Virus record (IMG/VR): IMGVR_UViG_3300043466_000438
Location: 1-22,244 of that record
Strand: one strand, 5' to 3'
Source of the DNA: a virus
DNA length: 22,244 nucleotides
A model generated the notes under the pieces. It made no database searches. It was not told where the DNA came from and saw only the letters and a list, made by a program, of their open reading frames with translations. The position numbers and the translations under genes were made by a program. How positions within the stretch are numbered: position 1 is the first letter of the stretch; the number at the start of each line of letters is the position of its first letter. Below are positions 10,852-18,146 of the stretch, in pieces.

Positions 10852-11403
10852 ATGCTGGCTGACATAGCCAATATACCACGTTGTCAAGAGGTTGTCAATA
10901 CTAAAATGAAGTTAGTTAGAAAAAAGATCAAAGAGAATTTAGCAGGCGCAGGAACATCAGCAGATGGTGGAATGTCAGCTCCTTTCTCAGCTATGGGTCA
11001 AGAGATAATTGCTAGAAGAAAAGAAAAGCCAATTTCTCTAGGCAAGAATACTGCAATAGGAACATATGTTGATGAAGATGCGCCTGCGAATGCTGTTGGT
11101 GCAGGAACTGGTGTTGCAGGACTAACACCTAATAGCTTGCCTGGTCGACCTTCTGAATTAATGCCAGTAGTAAAGCGCGGCAAACCTTTTCTTGGTGTGG
11201 AAACATATATTGTTCCATCAAGAGTATTCAATCAAATTAGAGAAGCAAAGCGCAAAGGTAAACACTGGCGCAAATATCTAGATGAAGACGATACATTCCA
11301 TCACATACGTATGGAAGCAAAAAAGAATAAGAAGGGTGCTATTATTATAGAAGACGAAAACACAGGTGCGCTGTGTTTCGCAAAATATGGAAAAAACATA
11401 TGA
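10852..11403 (+). CDS. Conserved late protein, unknown role
   Basis: This 183-residue protein has a flexible Gly/Ala/Pro-rich first half (AGTSADGGMSAPFSAMGQE, NAVGAGTGVAGLTPNSLPG) and a conserved C-terminal domain (VFNQIREAKRKGKHWRKYL and GAIIIEDENTGALCFAKYGK) known from marine T4-like phages without assigned function. The start is uncertain. The ATG at 10852 has no clear ribosome site, and an in-frame ATG at 10906 begins MKLVRKKIKENLAG, which would again place I-x-E at residues 8-10, though its AAGAGG is 14 bases away. Its stop overlaps the peptidase start as ATGA. Confidence 0.65.
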   Translation: MLADIANIPRCQEVVNTKMKLVRKKIKENLAGAGTSADGGMSAPFSAMGQEIIARRKEKPISLGKNTAIGTYVDEDAPANAVGAGTGVAGLTPNSLPGRPSELMPVVKRGKPFLGVETYIVPSRVFNQIREAKRKGKHWRKYLDEDDTFHHIRMEAKKNKKGAIIIEDENTGALCFAKYGKNI

Positions 11404-11921
11404 CACATTGGCCATTACAACGCGATTGCGATTCCTTCTATGGAAATCCACGCGGTAAGAACGTAACACAACCATCAGCAAAATGGGAATCGGAATATCT
11501 GGTATTTTTTAAACCACCGTTTCGTATCACATACGCTGGCAAACCCGTAGCTCAATTCAAAGTAAACAAGAATTGTCTCGTTGGTTTCCAAGAAGCATTT
11601 AACAACTTACTCAAGGCCGCAGGCGGTAAACAAAAAACATTAGACACTTGGGGTGTATCAATCTTTGCTGGCTGTTATAACTATCGCTTGATGCGTGGTG
11701 GCAACAGCTTATCAATGCACTCATGGGGTTGTGCTATCGACCTCGATCCAGCAAACAACAGTCTCATGGACAATACTCCTCGTTTCAAACAATTTCCAGA
11801 AGTTCTGGATGCATGGTCAAGAACAGGAGCAGTTTGGGGCGGTGATTGGGATGGCGACAAAGACACACTAGACGAGCGCCGCTGTGACGGTATGCATTGG
11901 CAGTTTGCAAGATTAAGATGA
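11400..11921 (+). CDS. M15-family peptidase (endolysin-type)
   Basis: With the ATGA-overlap start at 11400 the protein has 173 residues. It carries the zinc site of D-Ala-D-Ala carboxypeptidase/endopeptidases of family M15: H107-S-W-G-C-A-I-D114 (the H-x2-G-x-A-x-D pattern) and the C-terminal G-M-H166-W-Q-F. The sequence W-G-G-D-W-D-G-D before the last histidine is typical of the VanY-like branch used as phage endolysins. The likely job is cutting cross-links in host peptidoglycan at lysis. No signal peptide is visible, so it needs the holins that follow. An upstream in-frame ATG at 11373 would add nine residues but lies inside the preceding gene. The next gene overlaps by ATGA. Confidence 0.85.
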   Translation: MTHWPLQRDCDSFYGNPRGKNVTQPSAKWESEYLVFFKPPFRITYAGKPVAQFKVNKNCLVGFQEAFNNLLKAAGGKQKTLDTWGVSIFAGCYNYRLMRGGNSLSMHSWGCAIDLDPANNSLMDNTPRFKQFPEVLDAWSRTGAVWGGDWDGDKDTLDERRCDGMHWQFARLR

Positions 11922-12220
11922 AAGAAGAAACTTGGCTGAAGTCTTATTGGAGACCAGCCATTGCATGGCAATACTTTGTTGTGTGTATATGCGACTTCAT
12001 TATATTTCCTTCGGTGTTCATGTATATTGTTAGAGAACCGTGGGATCCTATTACACTAAAAGAAGGCGGATTCTATCATCTGGCCATGGCAGCAATTATA
12101 GGTGTTGCTGCATGGACAAGAGGGCAAGAGAAGATTGTACAATTGATAGACGGCGGCGAAGAAGTGCAGAAGACAACTACGTCCATGACGCCGATAAACA
12201 GCAATAAACGAGGTAAATAA
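11918..12220 (+). CDS. Holin-like membrane protein
   Basis: This 100-residue protein has two hydrophobic spans, about residues 13-36 (IAWQYFVVCICDFIIFPSVF) and 52-66 (FYHLAMAAIIGVAAW), and a polar Thr/Ser/Lys tail. The opening WLKSYWRPAIAW recalls the R-P-x2-x-W start of phage holins of the three-span type. It sits directly after the M15 peptidase (ATGA) and before a second membrane protein (TAATG), the classic order of a lysis cassette. Holin function is inferred from size, topology and position. It could instead be an antiholin or cooperate with the next protein. Confidence 0.65.
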   Translation: MKEETWLKSYWRPAIAWQYFVVCICDFIIFPSVFMYIVREPWDPITLKEGGFYHLAMAAIIGVAAWTRGQEKIVQLIDGGEEVQKTTTSMTPINSNKRGK

Positions 12221-12783
12221 TGTTAGCATTAATAGCACCTTTTTTAGGAATTTTAGGAAGTTTACTGCCTTCCATTGTGAGAATATTTGAGCGTAAGCAG
12301 GAGTTAAAATATGAAGTTGAACTTACTAAGATCAAACTTAATGCTGCCGCAACACAGGCAAGCATACAGTATCATATTGAGGAGATTAAGGCTGACGCTG
12401 AGTCTCGACAATCAGCTCTTGATCATGATAAGTCTCTTGATGGTGGCAAGTTTATCAACGCACTACGAGCTTCTATCAGACCCGTTATCACCTATTCATT
12501 CTTTATTCTCTTTGTGGCCGTTAAATGGTCTGCGGCATATGTTATGATCAAGCAGGGTCAAGATATCCCAACTATGCTTGATGCTGTCTGGGATCCGGAC
12601 ACAATGTCTCTATTCTCTACCATTATCGCATTCTGGTTTGGTTCGCGCGTGATGGAAAAGCAAGAGAAGTTGGCCGCTGTTACAGCATCACAACAACCAC
12701 AACTCAATGTAAAAGTAATACCTAATAAAGCACCTGTTACTAAGGCTCCCAAGAAGCCTGCGGGAACAGGAAGAGATAAATAA
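12220..12783 (+). CDS. Three-span holin-family-like protein
   Basis: This 187-residue protein has an N-terminal hydrophobic segment (1-23, LALIAPFLGILGSLLPSIV), a charged helical stretch (25-85) and two further spans: about 92-112 (VITYSFFILFVAVKWSAAY) and about 127-143 (MSLFSTIIAFWFGSR). The pattern RASIRPVITY followed by FWFGSR matches the three-transmembrane holin family named for gene-transfer-agent release, well known in alphaproteobacterial phages. The basic tail ends PKKPAGTGRDK, almost the same as the end of the 640-residue protein. Its last two codons and stop form the late-promoter-like GATAAATA. Confidence 0.7.
   Translation: MLALIAPFLGILGSLLPSIVRIFERKQELKYEVELTKIKLNAAATQASIQYHIEEIKADAESRQSALDHDKSLDGGKFINALRASIRPVITYSFFILFVAVKWSAAYVMIKQGQDIPTMLDAVWDPDTMSLFSTIIAFWFGSRVMEKQEKLAAVTASQQPQLNVKVIPNKAPVTKAPKKPAGTGRDK
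12775..12782 (+). promoter_or_regulatory. T4-type late promoter (GATAAATA)
   Basis: This octamer is identical to the one at 849-856 and again coincides with Asp-Lys-stop of the upstream gene. It is 26 bases before the GTG at 12809, with TAGGAG at 12794-12799 between. Confidence 0.5.
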
Positions 12784-12808
12784 AACAAGAATATAGGAGT
12801 GAAGTGCT

Positions 12809-13282
12809 GTGTCCGAACAAGAAATTAAAGTTGATATTGAATTACTGAAAAAAGATGTAGTAACTATGTCAGCTTTATTAGAGAAATTCGACACTACGAT
12901 AGACAAGATGCAAGAGATTGCATCCAGCCTTTCTAGAATGGTATCTTTGCAAGAGCAAAGACTTGAGAACCAAGAGAAAACAACAGCGGAGATGCAGAGC
13001 GTTCTGGAAATGAGAAGAATAGAAACAAACAATAACATCAAAGATATTTACAATCGTATTAACACAGTGAACAAAGAACTGACCGATAAGATAGAAGATT
13101 CTGAGAAATCGATTCTGGCTGAACTACAAAAATTAAGACAAGAGATTCAAAAGGAAGATACCGGTATCTCTCGTCGCCTTGGGCAGATTGAAATGTGGAA
13201 ATATGGTGCAGCAGCCATCATTACATTCCTATTGTTCTTAATAGCAAACAACGCAATCAACATTGGTAAACTATTCGATTAA
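12809..13282 (+). CDS. Coiled-coil protein with C-terminal membrane anchor
   Basis: This 157-residue protein starts at GTG (12809), with TAGGAG nine bases upstream and no better ATG. Residues about 5-125 are a long Leu/Ile heptad-like helix with almost no Pro or Gly. Residues about 133-152 (YGAAAIITFLLFLIANNA) form one membrane span with a short tail. Such tail-anchored coiled coils follow holin genes in several T4-like phages. It may be a lysis accessory (spanin-like or holin regulator) or a membrane tether. A true spanin pair is not apparent: there is no lipobox or outer-membrane partner. It closes the lysis-type cassette, 58 bases before the primase. Confidence 0.65.
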   Translation: MSEQEIKVDIELLKKDVVTMSALLEKFDTTIDKMQEIASSLSRMVSLQEQRLENQEKTTAEMQSVLEMRRIETNNNIKDIYNRINTVNKELTDKIEDSEKSILAELQKLRQEIQKEDTGISRRLGQIEMWKYGAAAIITFLLFLIANNAINIGKLFD

Positions 13283-13285
13283 CCG

Positions 13286-13313
13286 TTGACTTTCTAACAC
13301 TACCTGATATAAT
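13286..13313 (+). promoter_or_regulatory. Sigma-70-type promoter for the primase operon
   Basis: TTGACT (13286-13291), a 16-base spacer and a perfect TATAAT (13308-13313) lie in the gap before the primase gene. Predicted initiation is near 13319-13321. It is the best consensus promoter in the window and marks the switch from late to DNA-metabolism genes. Confidence 0.75.
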
Positions 13314-13340
13314 GCCATCTATGTAACATTAGGTGGCATT
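13311..13340 (+). promoter_or_regulatory. Hairpin masking the primase Shine-Dalgarno
   Basis: AATGCCATCTA (13311-13321) pairs with TAGGTGGCATT (13330-13340) over 11 bp including one G-U, with an 8-base loop, ending right at the ATG. The right arm contains the AGGTGG ribosome site. The left arm overlaps the -10 box and ends at the predicted start point, so only RNA read through from upstream genes can form the full stem. Confidence 0.65.
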
Positions 13341-14351
13341 ATGTCTTTGTATATTGATCGGAAATACGTATCACTTGTTTCCACTAAGCTGGAACGTTTC
13401 AAGCAGAAATCGGAATTCTTATGGAACTTTCGATGCCCTATCTGCGGAGATTCCCATAAGAATAAGTTGAAGACGCGCGGCTATTTCTACCGCCGCAAGT
13501 CTGATTTGTTTTTCCAGTGTCATAACTGTGGCACTTCTTTATCTATTGGAAACTTTCTCAAAACGATTGATAGGTCACTGTATCGTGAGTATCAGTTAGA
13601 GCGTTACAAGAATGAGACCACTGGTAATGTGGCAAAACCAGACTTTTCCATAGCAAAGACAAAGCCTGTATTCAATATTGTACCAAAGATCAATCTGCCG
13701 ACAATCAATTCTTTACCAGAAGAACATGCGGCAAAGAAGTATCTTATATCGCGTAAGATACCGCGTGATAAAATGAACGATATATACTATACATCCAACT
13801 TCAAGGCGTTTGTTCTGGAGATGTTGCCTGATTATGAAAAGACTTTGTTTGAAGAACAACGTATCATATTCCCATTCTACGATCAAGACAAAAAGCTTCT
13901 TGGTTTCCAGGGTCGTGCTATAGGTAAATCCAAAGTTAAGTATATCACAATCAAGATGGATGAAGACTTCAAAAAAATCTACGGACTTGATCGCGTAGAT
14001 TTGACGAAGCGCGTTTATGTTGTTGAAGGCCCAATCGATAGTCTATTCTTGCAGAATTCACTTGCAACTATGGATGCCTCGTTGTATAATATTACTCTTT
14101 TGCTTGGTAATTATGATTACGTATTCATTCATGACAATGAACCAAGAAATGCTGACATTGTTAAGCAAATGAATAAGACAATTCGTCACGGTGATTATAT
14201 TTTTATTTGGCCTCAAAATATAGTAGCAAAAGACATAAACGACTGGATCCTGACTGGAACGACATCCTCTGAAATTCAGAGTATTATAGATAAACATACG
14301 TTCAATGATTTGAGAGCAAAGCTAGAATTTGAAGCATGGCGGAAAGTTTAG
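13341..14351 (+). CDS. 61: DNA primase, T4 gp61 type
   Basis: This 336-residue protein is close to the size of T4 gp61. The N-terminal zinc-binding domain has C32-P-I-C35-G-D-S and F-Q-C60-H-N-C63-G, followed by the linker typical of gp61-like primases. The catalytic TOPRIM part shows E229 in VYVVEGPIDS and D265-N-E267 in FIHDNEPRN, the metal-binding acidic residues. It makes short RNA primers for lagging-strand synthesis with the phage helicase, which is not in the window. It has its own sigma-70-type promoter and a ribosome-site hairpin. The next gene starts 16 bases before its stop. Confidence 0.9.
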   Translation: MSLYIDRKYVSLVSTKLERFKQKSEFLWNFRCPICGDSHKNKLKTRGYFYRRKSDLFFQCHNCGTSLSIGNFLKTIDRSLYREYQLERYKNETTGNVAKPDFSIAKTKPVFNIVPKINLPTINSLPEEHAAKKYLISRKIPRDKMNDIYYTSNFKAFVLEMLPDYEKTLFEEQRIIFPFYDQDKKLLGFQGRAIGKSKVKYITIKMDEDFKKIYGLDRVDLTKRVYVVEGPIDSLFLQNSLATMDASLYNITLLLGNYDYVFIHDNEPRNADIVKQMNKTIRHGDYIFIWPQNIVAKDINDWILTGTTSSEIQSIIDKHTFNDLRAKLEFEAWRKV

Positions 14352-15256
14352 TTGACATATACGACCGTCAAGGTCAAATTCTAGATCATCTTCGTATTGA
14401 TGAGCCTTTACACTACATTGATGGTAGAATTACCATCGGTATTAAAAGCGGGTTGTATTACAAAGGAGCTGGAATACCTTACACCACTCATTTTGTTTTA
14501 GAACCAACACATGAGTACACATCGATAAGATATACAGATGTAGACTATCTTGGATACGAAGTTATCAAGAAAAGCTTTGTAGACTTATCAGGAATCTTTG
14601 AAGAGAAATATCAACCACAATTCAGCGACTTTATTGGCACGTGTGGCAATAAAGAATTGAGTATTCTTGAAAACGTAGATGACTTCAAACTATCTTCTTT
14701 GCAACTTAGAAAAGTTGTCAATTGGGATAAGACGAATAGCCAATATTATTTTGTTGTTGACTATCTATGTGGTAGAAAAAAGTATCTAGACTATGGAAAT
14801 CCAGTTGATCTAAAAAATCTTTTGTCATACATGATTCAGAACAACTGGAATTTTATATGGGACAAAAGAAGTATCTCTGATGTTTCGTATAATGGATTAG
14901 TTACAGATGTGGCTGATATCTTTAAGTCAGCTTCACTAAATCATAAGATAGGAACTGTGTATTCTATCTTGTACTCTTTGTCAAAAATAGATAGTGCGAA
15001 GTATTATGATTTGCTATCTGTTTTGAAATACAAACACACCACGGACATGGATTACATTTTCAATTCTGTTCGTTTTATACGTGATAGTGGTATTGATATT
15101 AGTGAGTTGTATGTTGATGGCGGTGATGTTCGTCTATATAATCACATTCTCAAGAATTATCTAATCACAGGCAAAAATTGTGCCCATTGTTCTTATGCTG
15201 AATTGGGAGAAAAAGTTATGAATGATTATAAGAATAGACTTAATGGAATAAACTGA
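14336..15256 (+). CDS. Protein of unknown function following the primase
   Basis: This 306-residue protein begins at an ATG inside the primase gene, so it is translationally coupled. I do not recognise it. It is rich in Tyr, Asp, Ser and Ile, with a beta-rich first third (IDGRITIGIKSGLYYKGAG, YTSIRYTDVDYLGYEV), a helical middle and a C-terminal C-A-H-C motif (GKNCAHCSYAEL) that could bind metal but lacks a second pair. There is no membrane span or signal peptide. Position among replication and nucleotide genes suggests early or middle expression. The reading frame is long and uninterrupted and the coding is convincing even though the role is not. Confidence 0.7.
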   Translation: MAESLVDIYDRQGQILDHLRIDEPLHYIDGRITIGIKSGLYYKGAGIPYTTHFVLEPTHEYTSIRYTDVDYLGYEVIKKSFVDLSGIFEEKYQPQFSDFIGTCGNKELSILENVDDFKLSSLQLRKVVNWDKTNSQYYFVVDYLCGRKKYLDYGNPVDLKNLLSYMIQNNWNFIWDKRSISDVSYNGLVTDVADIFKSASLNHKIGTVYSILYSLSKIDSAKYYDLLSVLKYKHTTDMDYIFNSVRFIRDSGIDISELYVDGGDVRLYNHILKNYLITGKNCAHCSYAELGEKVMNDYKNRLNGIN

Positions 15257-15516
15257 TGAATAACGTTAGAAAATTTAGAAAGAAGCCTGTAACAATCGAA
15301 GCAATGCAATTGACAGATGCAAAGTCTGTACTAGATATAGAAGAGTGGATAAACAGTGGTGATGTAGGCTTTAGCACCAACCCTCCTACTCTGTGGATAG
15401 ATACATTAGAAGGCCGCATGGAAGCAACTACTGGCGATTGGATTATCAAAGGTGTTGAAGGCGAGTTCTATCCTTGCAAGAATAATATTTTTATCAAGAC
15501 ATATCAGGAAGTATAA
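15256..15516 (+). CDS. PGDYG-type small phage protein
   Basis: This 86-residue protein has the familiar layout of a widespread phage family: RKFRKKPVTIEAMQL at the start, then ...IDTLEGRMEATTGDWIIKGVEGEFYPCK and a short tail. Family members are annotated only by this motif (PGDYG; here TGDWI) and have no assigned biochemical function. It overlaps the previous stop as TGATG and is followed after four bases by thyX, so it is part of the nucleotide-metabolism operon. Confidence 0.8.
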   Translation: MNNVRKFRKKPVTIEAMQLTDAKSVLDIEEWINSGDVGFSTNPPTLWIDTLEGRMEATTGDWIIKGVEGEFYPCKNNIFIKTYQEV

Positions 15517-15519
15517 ATT

Positions 15520-16191
15520 ATGAAAAATGTGAGACTGATCGGCGTTACGCAGCCGACTATGATCAACCATGAGACGAATAACTTTATGACCGCAGAACAG
15601 TTGATTGCTTATTGTGCCCGCGTATCTAATCCTGCAAATCAGGACAACCCAGATAGCGAACGCCTTCTTAAGTATCTTGTGAAGAACAAGCACTGGTCGC
15701 CATTTGAAATGGTACATATTGTTATGGAGATACAGACTACCCGTGATATCGGCCGTCAGATCCTTCGGCATCGGTCGTTCTCGTTTCAGGAGTTCAGCCA
15801 GCGTTATGCTGCTGTAACTGAGATGTCCGAACCGCGCGAAGCTCGTTTGCAGGATCAGAAGAATCGGCAGAACAGTATTGAAACAAATGATTTGGGTCTG
15901 GCATTCGATTGGATTACCGTTCAAAATGATTTAATGCGAGACGCGCAAAATGCATATGAATGGGCAATAGAAAATGGAATCGCAAAAGAAGTTGCTCGTT
16001 CTGTTCTTCCTGAAGGTCTCACTATGTCACGCATGTATATGTCAGGATCACTCCGTTCATGGATCCACTACTGCGAACTACGTATGGCCAACGGAACGCA
16101 GAAGGAACATAGATTAATCGCAGAACAGTGTTGGAATGTTATCGTTGAACAATTCCCCTCACTTAAGAACGTACTAGAAAACAATCAATAA
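15520..16191 (+). CDS. thyX: Flavin-dependent thymidylate synthase
   Basis: This 223-residue protein carries the diagnostic ThyX motif R-H-R-x2-S-x4-S-x-R-Y, here R83-H-R-S-F-S-F-Q-E-F-S-Q-R-Y96. It converts dUMP to dTMP using FAD, NADPH and methylene-tetrahydrofolate. The usual FAD/dUMP contacts N-terminal to it (HWSPFEMVHI) and the C-terminal RSWIHYCELRMANGTQKEHR segment are present, and the length is normal for the family. With the downstream ribonucleotide reductase it supplies dTTP and other dNTPs for phage replication. It lies in the operon that starts at the primase promoter. Confidence 0.95.
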   Translation: MKNVRLIGVTQPTMINHETNNFMTAEQLIAYCARVSNPANQDNPDSERLLKYLVKNKHWSPFEMVHIVMEIQTTRDIGRQILRHRSFSFQEFSQRYAAVTEMSEPREARLQDQKNRQNSIETNDLGLAFDWITVQNDLMRDAQNAYEWAIENGIAKEVARSVLPEGLTMSRMYMSGSLRSWIHYCELRMANGTQKEHRLIAEQCWNVIVEQFPSLKNVLENNQ

Positions 16192-16211
16192 AAATTTAGG
16201 AGACTACACGT

Positions 16212-18146
16212 ATGTCAGGCAGTAATATGTTACCGACACTATATCAAGAGTTCATTTATAAGAGCCGCTATGCTAAGTGGTTGTGGGATGAAAATCGTCG
16301 TGAAAACTGGGATGAAACAGTTGCTCGTTATTTCAACTTCTTTGATGAACACATCAAGGAAAATACTGGCTATACTGTTACCAAGGAAGAACGTAAGCAG
16401 CTTGAAGATGCTGTATTGAACCTTGAAATCATGCCATCTATGCGCTGTCTAATGACTGCTGGTGAAGCACTCAAGCGCGAGAATGTTGCTGGCTACAATT
16501 GCTCTTATGTTGCTGTAGATAATCCTCGTTCATTCGATGAAATCCTCTACATTCTTATGAATGGCACTGGTGTTGGTTTCTCTGTTGAGTCTAAGTTTGT
16601 TGATCAACTGCCTATTGTATCGGATTCATTTCACGACACTGAAACAAACATCGTAGTGGCCGACTCAAAGCTTGGTTGGGCAAAGTCTCTCAAGGAACTT
16701 ATTCATCTTCTTTACGCTGGTCAGGTTCCTCGTTGGGATCTTTCTAAGGTACGCTCAGCTGGCGCGCCGCTTAAGACCTTTGGTGGTCGTGCTTCTGGCC
16801 CAGCACCGCTTGAAGACCTATTTAAGTTTTGCGTATCAACATTCAAGAAGGCTGCTGGTCGTCGTTTGACCACATTGGAGGCACATGATATCGTTTGTAA
16901 GATTGCTGAAATCGTGGTTGTCGGTGGCGTTAGACGTTCTGCACTTATTTCTCTTTCTGACCTTAGTGATGATAGAATGCGCGTTGCAAAGTCTGGTGAC
17001 TGGTGGAAAGAAAATGTCCAACGCGCTCTCGCAAACAACTCATTTGTGGCTAAAGAGAAGCCTGATGTGGGCATCTTCATGCGCGAGTGGCTTTCCCTCT
17101 ATGAGTCGCGCTCTGGCGAACGCGGCATTTTCTCGAGAGCAGCGTCGAAGAAGCAGGCTGAGAAGTTTGGAAGACGAGATCCGAATCACGATTTCGGCAC
17201 CAACCCATGTAGTGAAATCATTCTACGTTCCAGAGAGTTCTGCAACCTCACAGAGGTTGTCGTTAGAGGAGATGACACCCCAGAAACTCTCAAACGAAAA
17301 GTCAAACTCGCAACTATACTTGGTACATTTCAATCCTCACTTACCAACTTCAAATACTTGAGCAAGAAGTGGTCTGAGAATTGCGAAGAAGAGCGTTTGC
17401 TTGGTGTGTCTTTGACCGGTATCATGGACAATGAGTACACGAATGGTACTGGGGCTAAAGTAATACTTGATGGCGCACTCGAATCAATGTTGGAGGATCT
17501 ACGCAATGAAGCAGTCAAAACTAACGCTACTTGGGCTGCGAAACTTGGTATTCCTGTATCTGCTGCTATTACTTGCGTCAAACCTTCTGGCACCGTATCT
17601 CAGTTGGTCGATTCGGCTAGTGGTATTCATGCTCGTCACAGTCCCTATTATATTCGTACTGTTCGCGCAGACAAGAAAGACCCACTAGCACTAATGATGA
17701 AGGACATGGGGTTCCCTGTTGAAGACGATGTAACAAAGCCTCAGCACACTTATGTCTTTTCATTCCCGCAGAAGTCTCCTGATCATGCTGTGTTCCGTAA
17801 GGATCTAACTGCTATTCAACAACTTGAACTGTGGCTTACATATCAGCGTCATTGGTGTGAGCATAAGCCATCTGTTACTGTGTCCGTCAAGGAAGAAGAA
17901 TGGCCAGAAGTTGGTGCTTGGGTTTATAATCACTTTGATGAAATGTCTGGCGTATCATTCTTGCCATTCTCAGATCACGTATACAAGCAGGCTCCTTATC
18001 AGGATTGCACCAAGGAAGAATATGATGCTCTTGCTGCTAAGATGCCTAAGTCAGTTGACTGGACAAAGTTAGCTACATATGAGAAGCAAGACGCAACAAC
18101 TGGCTCACAAGAATTAGCGTGTGTAGCCGGTGGTTGTGAAATCTAA
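16212..18146 (+). CDS. nrdJ: Adenosylcobalamin-dependent (class II) ribonucleotide reductase, monomeric type
   Basis: All five catalytic cysteines of the Lactobacillus-type triphosphate reductase are in register. C97 (AGYNCS) and C344 (FCNL) form the reducible pair; C333 in NPCSE is the thiyl-radical cysteine, 11 residues before C344 exactly as C408/C419 in the lactobacillus enzyme. C637 and C642 in the tail CVAGGC are spaced by five like C731/C736. Other matches are GVGFSVE and CVKPSGTVSQLVDSASGIHA. At 644 residues it is shorter than the 739 of the lactobacillus enzyme, as usual for phage forms. It reduces ribonucleotides to deoxyribonucleotides without oxygen and needs vitamin B12 from the host. 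TAGGAG at 16197-16202 supports the ATG. Confidence 0.93.
   Translation: MSGSNMLPTLYQEFIYKSRYAKWLWDENRRENWDETVARYFNFFDEHIKENTGYTVTKEERKQLEDAVLNLEIMPSMRCLMTAGEALKRENVAGYNCSYVAVDNPRSFDEILYILMNGTGVGFSVESKFVDQLPIVSDSFHDTETNIVVADSKLGWAKSLKELIHLLYAGQVPRWDLSKVRSAGAPLKTFGGRASGPAPLEDLFKFCVSTFKKAAGRRLTTLEAHDIVCKIAEIVVVGGVRRSALISLSDLSDDRMRVAKSGDWWKENVQRALANNSFVAKEKPDVGIFMREWLSLYESRSGERGIFSRAASKKQAEKFGRRDPNHDFGTNPCSEIILRSREFCNLTEVVVRGDDTPETLKRKVKLATILGTFQSSLTNFKYLSKKWSENCEEERLLGVSLTGIMDNEYTNGTGAKVILDGALESMLEDLRNEAVKTNATWAAKLGIPVSAAITCVKPSGTVSQLVDSASGIHARHSPYYIRTVRADKKDPLALMMKDMGFPVEDDVTKPQHTYVFSFPQKSPDHAVFRKDLTAIQQLELWLTYQRHWCEHKPSVTVSVKEEEWPEVGAWVYNHFDEMSGVSFLPFSDHVYKQAPYQDCTKEEYDALAAKMPKSVDWTKLATYEKQDATTGSQELACVAGGCEI

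Follow-up and report, generated by a model that had tools for sequence, protein, structure and literature searches.

In the T4-like aquatic phage analysed here, translation of the DNA primase gene is probably confined to RNA that starts at the gene's own promoter. The DNA is IMG/VR record IMGVR_UViG_3300043466_000438, a 22,244-base virus record taken at its whole length (the window). We propose that the stretch of the primase promoter between its −10 box and start point also encodes one arm, the 5′ one, of an RNA hairpin, and that the SD sequence and the AUG lie in the opposite arm. RNA polymerase coming in from the lysis region would copy both arms, the resulting hairpin (about −20 kcal/mol) would exclude 30S subunits, and primase would be silenced late in infection. 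On the other hand, RNA begun at the primase promoter would lack the 5′ arm and be translated.

A first-pass annotation of the window had claimed that read-through RNA is untranslatable and own-promoter RNA translatable. Sequence and comparison support this by the conserved geometry, the joint change of both arms and the co-orientation of the upstream gene, which are found along with the stem and its overlap with the promoter, and by the lysis genes upstream and a late sigma factor of relatives. The start point, the late read-through RNA, the drop in its translation and the late silencing of primase are what we infer.

Results

Genes around the primase

The primase gene (13341–14351, + strand) encodes a 336-aa protein of the T4 gp61 type, which matches the phage primase family phrog_47 (E 3.3e-81) and Pfam DNAG_N over the cut-off. 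It is called early because of its function and promoter type. Its upstream neighbour (12809–13282, + strand) encodes a 157-aa protein with a coiled coil and a C-terminal membrane segment, DUF7201-like below the Pfam cut-off and present also in many relatives. Further upstream is the lysis region (11373–12783, + strand), with an endolysin (M15 peptidase, 11373–11921), a holin-like protein (11897–12220) and a phrog_6637 protein (12220–12783). The gap of 58 nt between the stop of the upstream gene (13282) and the primase holds both the promoter and the hairpin.

Closely spaced genes follow on the 3′ side (14336–18146, + strand), encoding a 306-aa protein of unknown type, an 86-aa protein, ThyX (15520–16191) and a B12-type ribonucleotide reductase (16212–18146). 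Because the window has no other promoter-SD-ATG candidate of comparable quality, these genes may be transcribed from the primase promoter as a putative operon. Incidentally, phrog_451 (461 positions) spans both the primase and its upstream neighbour (window 12809–14351), aligning to the neighbour through its N-terminal part and to the primase through its remainder, so these two may be fused into one protein in some phages.

Among cultured phages, none was found with a primase at least 60% identical to that of the window or to those of the three relatives tried. One distant relative from a contig scan was located in a Chloroflexi MAG.

Promoter and hairpin at the primase start

The promoter TTGACT-16-TATAAT (13286–13313, + strand) has its −35 box at 13286–13291, a TG at 13305–13306, one base 5′ of the −10 box, and the −10 box at 13308–13313. 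It matches the consensus at 11 of 12 positions, and is the top site between 12000 and 15000; almost every relative in groups A to C has a promoter at the corresponding position. It was scored by sigma-70 rules, which are assumed to apply in the host. Promoter-like sites between 12000 and 15000 occur at a chance number (11 versus 9.7 expected), so the promoter claim is based on quality, position and conservation. Transcription is predicted to start at 13319–13322 (+ strand), ~7 nt past the −10 box, A13321, a purine and the final base of the left arm, being the likeliest start. The first-pass annotation had named the same promoter and a start near 13319–13321, past nearly all of the left arm, with which our reading agrees.

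The hairpin has 16 pairs (13306–13321/13330–13345, + strand). Its left arm (13306–13321) includes the −10 box and would be absent from own-promoter RNA if the start is ~13321. Its loop (13322–13329) has 8 nt, and its right arm (13330–13345) includes the SD sequence AGGTGG (13331–13336) and the AUG (13341–13343), both inside the stem. The minimum free energy of 13286–13360 is −23.6 kcal/mol (z = −5.6), and none of 200 shuffles was as good. Rfam gave no RNA family at or above the gathering score in the window. An 11-bp stem (13311–13321/13330–13340) burying AGGTGG and abutting the ATG had been described earlier. Those 11 pairs, one of them U-G, are present and the SD is buried, but they are only the inner part of the longer stem, and the AUG lies within the stem rather than next to it.

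The two kinds of RNA differ when folded. In read-through RNA with start points from 12760 to 13260, the stem has a pair probability of 0.93–0.99, and the predicted unpaired probabilities are 0.001 for the SD and 0.0013 for the AUG. In own-promoter RNA starting at 13317–13322, they are 0.29–0.41 and 0.56–0.74, respectively. Own-promoter RNA, too, has some structure, which counts against the mechanism. Ribosomes halting at the upstream stop (13282) would cover to ~13297 with a normal footprint, and should therefore leave the stem closed.

Specificity and sources of read-through RNA

Promoter-SD-ATG candidates were compared within single genomes, 3 in the window and 13 and 19 in two contigs of its own type (G001 and G002), and a duplex of −9 or lower was found at the primase only. 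In G001 and G002 the primase duplex is −17.0, while the next best among the 13 and 19 candidates are −5.9 and −7.8, respectively. We rejected the idea that such a hairpin is a general feature of early promoters, as it is not so in G001 and G002. Another contig (G004) gave one weak match, where a GATAAT box precedes an ORF of 56 aa.

The upstream gene is co-oriented with the primase in all loci checked, its stop lying 37–92 nt before the primase ATG. Its type varies among group A loci, being DUF7201-like or lysine-rich. Apart from the hairpin, there is no terminator-like site on the + strand between the upstream gene and the primase. Genes for a late sigma factor of the gp55 type (phrog_234, E about 1e-53) are present in relatives and were reached via PF04542; phrog_275 proved not to be the sigma family and had no matches anywhere.

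The late promoter box ATAAATA is enriched upstream of genes in related contigs (7 and 11 versus about 2 expected), and 12 of 28 loci have it 17–46 nt ahead of the primase's upstream neighbour. In the window it occurs at a chance number, and there are no TATAAATA late promoters. A weak candidate for a T4-type late promoter (12776–12782, + strand) is located 33 nt before the GTG at 12809 and coincides with codons at the end of the preceding gene. Because ATAAATA overlaps codons of a conserved protein end in several loci, it is a candidate only.

Retained pairing in close relatives

Relatives were gathered by an IMG/VR protein search and a pattern search. The pattern search of IMG/VR returned 57 loci, of which 35 have the same stem, all at primase starts; the other 22 matches are unrelated to primase and look like chance palindromes. 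Conservation of the stem in relatives, a check suggested by the first-pass annotation, thus extends to 35 primase loci, and it is complemented by joint changes of the arms at greater distance.

The promoter, arm and SD geometry is kept in 22 distinct leaders of close relatives (group A, primase identity of at least 73%). With the −10 box fixed, the duplex of left and right arms gives z of −4.8 to −8.7 against shuffles. Seven apical pairs lie outside the −10 box, and among them pairing is kept via G-U in 16 of 17 variant cells. No pair has changed on both sides within the group, and the shuffle control was flat. Group A by itself is a case of retained pairing in the aligned leaders, not of covariation.

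Changed arms in distant relatives

More distant primases (54–65% identity, group B) were obtained by profile search. Their promoter is in the same place, the predicted start falling 17–32 nt before the ATG in nearly all, but their arms have other sequences, for example GACAGATC/GATCTGTC (L120), ACTCTTC/GGAGAGT (L119), GAACTCTTT/AAGGAGTTC (L126) and ACAATCC/GGATTGT (L152). In an arm-swap test, a leader’s own arms should pair no better than arms from two phages if there is no selection on pairing. For 23 leaders at this distance, own arms gave −6.1 kcal/mol and swapped arms −4.1 kcal/mol, and none of 5000 permutations was as good. When one leader per cluster was used, 1 of 100,000 permutations was as good with the window’s group and 6 of 100,000 without it. 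The clusters were drawn by eye, and relatedness is not fully removed. The geometry is retained in about half of the distant clusters, their arms changing together. When the test was narrowed to the segment from −10 to start, about half of the group B representatives had no own-arm advantage.

With 41 still more distant leaders (group D), 57 of 10,000 permutations were as good. Some of these (L260, L262 and L264) look leaderless, with the AUG inside the read-through hairpin. In the same three and in L244 and L249, the primase ATG is 1–2 nt from the predicted transcription start, which suggests that their primase mRNA is leaderless.

This stem is absent from group C (primases at 49–54% identity). 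In its leaders L142–L162 (e.g. L147, L151 and L144), a palindrome at the −35 box, TTGAC-N5-GTCAA, replaces the −10/SD hairpin. It extends outward with joint changes and G-U pairs, and its own halves outpair swapped halves (3 of 20,000 permutations as good), while it is too distant from the SD for hiding it. Leaders L144–L162 contain a conserved TTCATTATGNNCAGGTGA between the start point and the primase ATG. In many of them it reads ATG NNN AGG TGA, which is a frame of three codons with its stop overlapping the SD, but the frame is broken in L142, L143 and L154.

Other roles for the hairpin

A near-perfect dyad over a core promoter could be a DNA operator, bound by a repressor over the −10 box and the start point, and the −35 palindrome of group C would fit such a role. 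However, loops of 7, 8, 10 and 16 nt in close relatives would shift the half-sites on the helix, and group B arms are unrelated in sequence, so fixed half-sites with fixed spacing do not describe these leaders. Moreover, nearly every variant among the paired bases is C to T or A to G, which keeps RNA wobble pairs and spoils DNA symmetry. Both the differing loop lengths and the wobble changes point to RNA rather than to a DNA operator, which we regard as very improbable. The RNA hairpin could instead be a landing site on long RNA for a regulator or nuclease controlling the dosage of primase, such as a RegA-like repressor, the primase protein or RNase III/E. In T4, gp43 and other replication proteins act on their own mRNAs through leader structures (PMC3014915). 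This is just as improbable, since arm and loop sequences are unconserved across relatives and the structure is missing from own-promoter RNA. Least probable of all, the pairing would be functionless, the −10 TATAATG being complementary by chance to CATTATG where the gene begins. Any TATAAT can pair with ATTATG, and in the fetched loci ATTATG is enriched 5–45 nt past the −10 boxes of strong promoters (21 versus 5 in a downstream control), partly due to the primase starts themselves. But the pairing extends past the −10 box via GCCATCTA/TAGGTGGC, with the z-scores given above, group B arms change together, and other promoters of G001 and G002 have no such pairing.

Transcription termination deserves more weight. 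The hairpin could mainly be a terminator or a 3′-end stabiliser for lysis or late RNA, sharing DNA with the next promoter and hiding the SD incidentally. A simple scan flags 13306–13345 with TTTGTATATT as terminator-like, a weak match, and a T-run follows the hairpin at the right-arm end in L022 (GGCATTTTTTT) and in L018/L133 (GGATTTTTTGTTTT). In cultured Synechococcus phage S-B68 (L284, MK016664.1), a strong stem before position 151 is followed by TTTT right before the primase. Against this, the base of the window’s stem is A-U/G-U, only 5 of its 16 pairs are G-C, and the T’s that follow are primase codons. A T-run 3′ of the right arm is lacking from most leaders in groups A and B, and termination alone would not require a stem that covers the SD and AUG. 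We consider this reading unlikely for the window. Hiding of the ribosome site, as proposed in the first-pass annotation, is the best-supported mechanism, but it may not extend to every relative, as L022, L018/L133 and possibly S-B68 look terminator-like.

Thus, in some relatives (L022, L018 and S-B68) the read-through RNA may be terminated and not merely closed at the start site. Either way the outcome would be the same, no primase from read-through RNA. The logic shared across relatives, as far as their leaders tell, is blocking of read-through expression rather than strictly hiding of the ribosome site.

The stem of S-B68 coincides in part with a weaker promoter-like site, TTGATA-17-TACAGT. 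Five annotated cyanophages have the primase directly behind the preceding gene or overlapping it (gap of at most 12 nt) and so lack a comparable spacer, which S-B68 does have.

Discussion

In T4, a sequestering structure lowers synthesis from gene e about 100-fold, and promoters just 5′ of the gene yield RNA without the 5′ arm (PMC3014915). The primase start resembles T4 e, soc and 49 in that folded long upstream RNA has the SD and/or AUG in a helix, and in that a nearby promoter is predicted to give RNA without the 5′ arm. In the window, the −10 box itself lies within the arm, which distinguishes it from these genes. They also differ in timing: T4 e, soc and 49 are late genes shielded from early RNA, whereas here a replication gene, primase, with a sigma-70-type promoter would be shielded from lysis-gene RNA. 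The first-pass annotation aptly called this a reversed time order, as the T4 genes so regulated are all late, on RNA also carrying early and middle genes (PMC2988022).

For I-TevI, I-TevII, I-TevIII, segB and mobE, the promoter position keeps the short transcript from forming the RBS hairpin (PMC2988022). These homing endonucleases are alike in having a short own transcript without the RBS hairpin, and differ in being mobile genes with middle or late promoters. In the IS10/Tn10 transposase, outside read-through RNA hides the start site and own-promoter RNA does not. There the arm comes from the transposon end, whereas here it belongs to a phage replication gene and the arms turn over.

The principle is thus known from T4 e, soc, 49 and I-TevI, and what would be new is an early-type gene shielded from late RNA. 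A replication gene is apparently hidden from lysis-region RNA in many phages, with changed arms, which suggests that primase made from late RNA is costly. The design is compact, as the −10 region of a promoter would double as a translation lock against read-through.

We give even chances to a broader rule, by which many and diverse T4-like aquatic phages would express primase from its own promoter only. The −10/start region would act as an antisense arm built into the promoter and directed at the translation start, and would have been remade again and again from new sequences in SD-hiding, AUG-hiding leaderless or terminating forms. Primase would thereby be insulated from late transcription, and the nucleotide-synthesis genes downstream might be as well. 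With thyX and the reductase gene lying close behind the primase, an untranslated primase could speculatively lower both on read-through RNA by polarity.

A second promoter-straddling hairpin was seen in L166 (6380–6440, + strand). There a strong promoter, TTGACA-17-TATAAT, precedes a 245-aa gene; GGAGAGA lies in the spacer of this promoter, and TCTCTCCTTT follows its −10 box.
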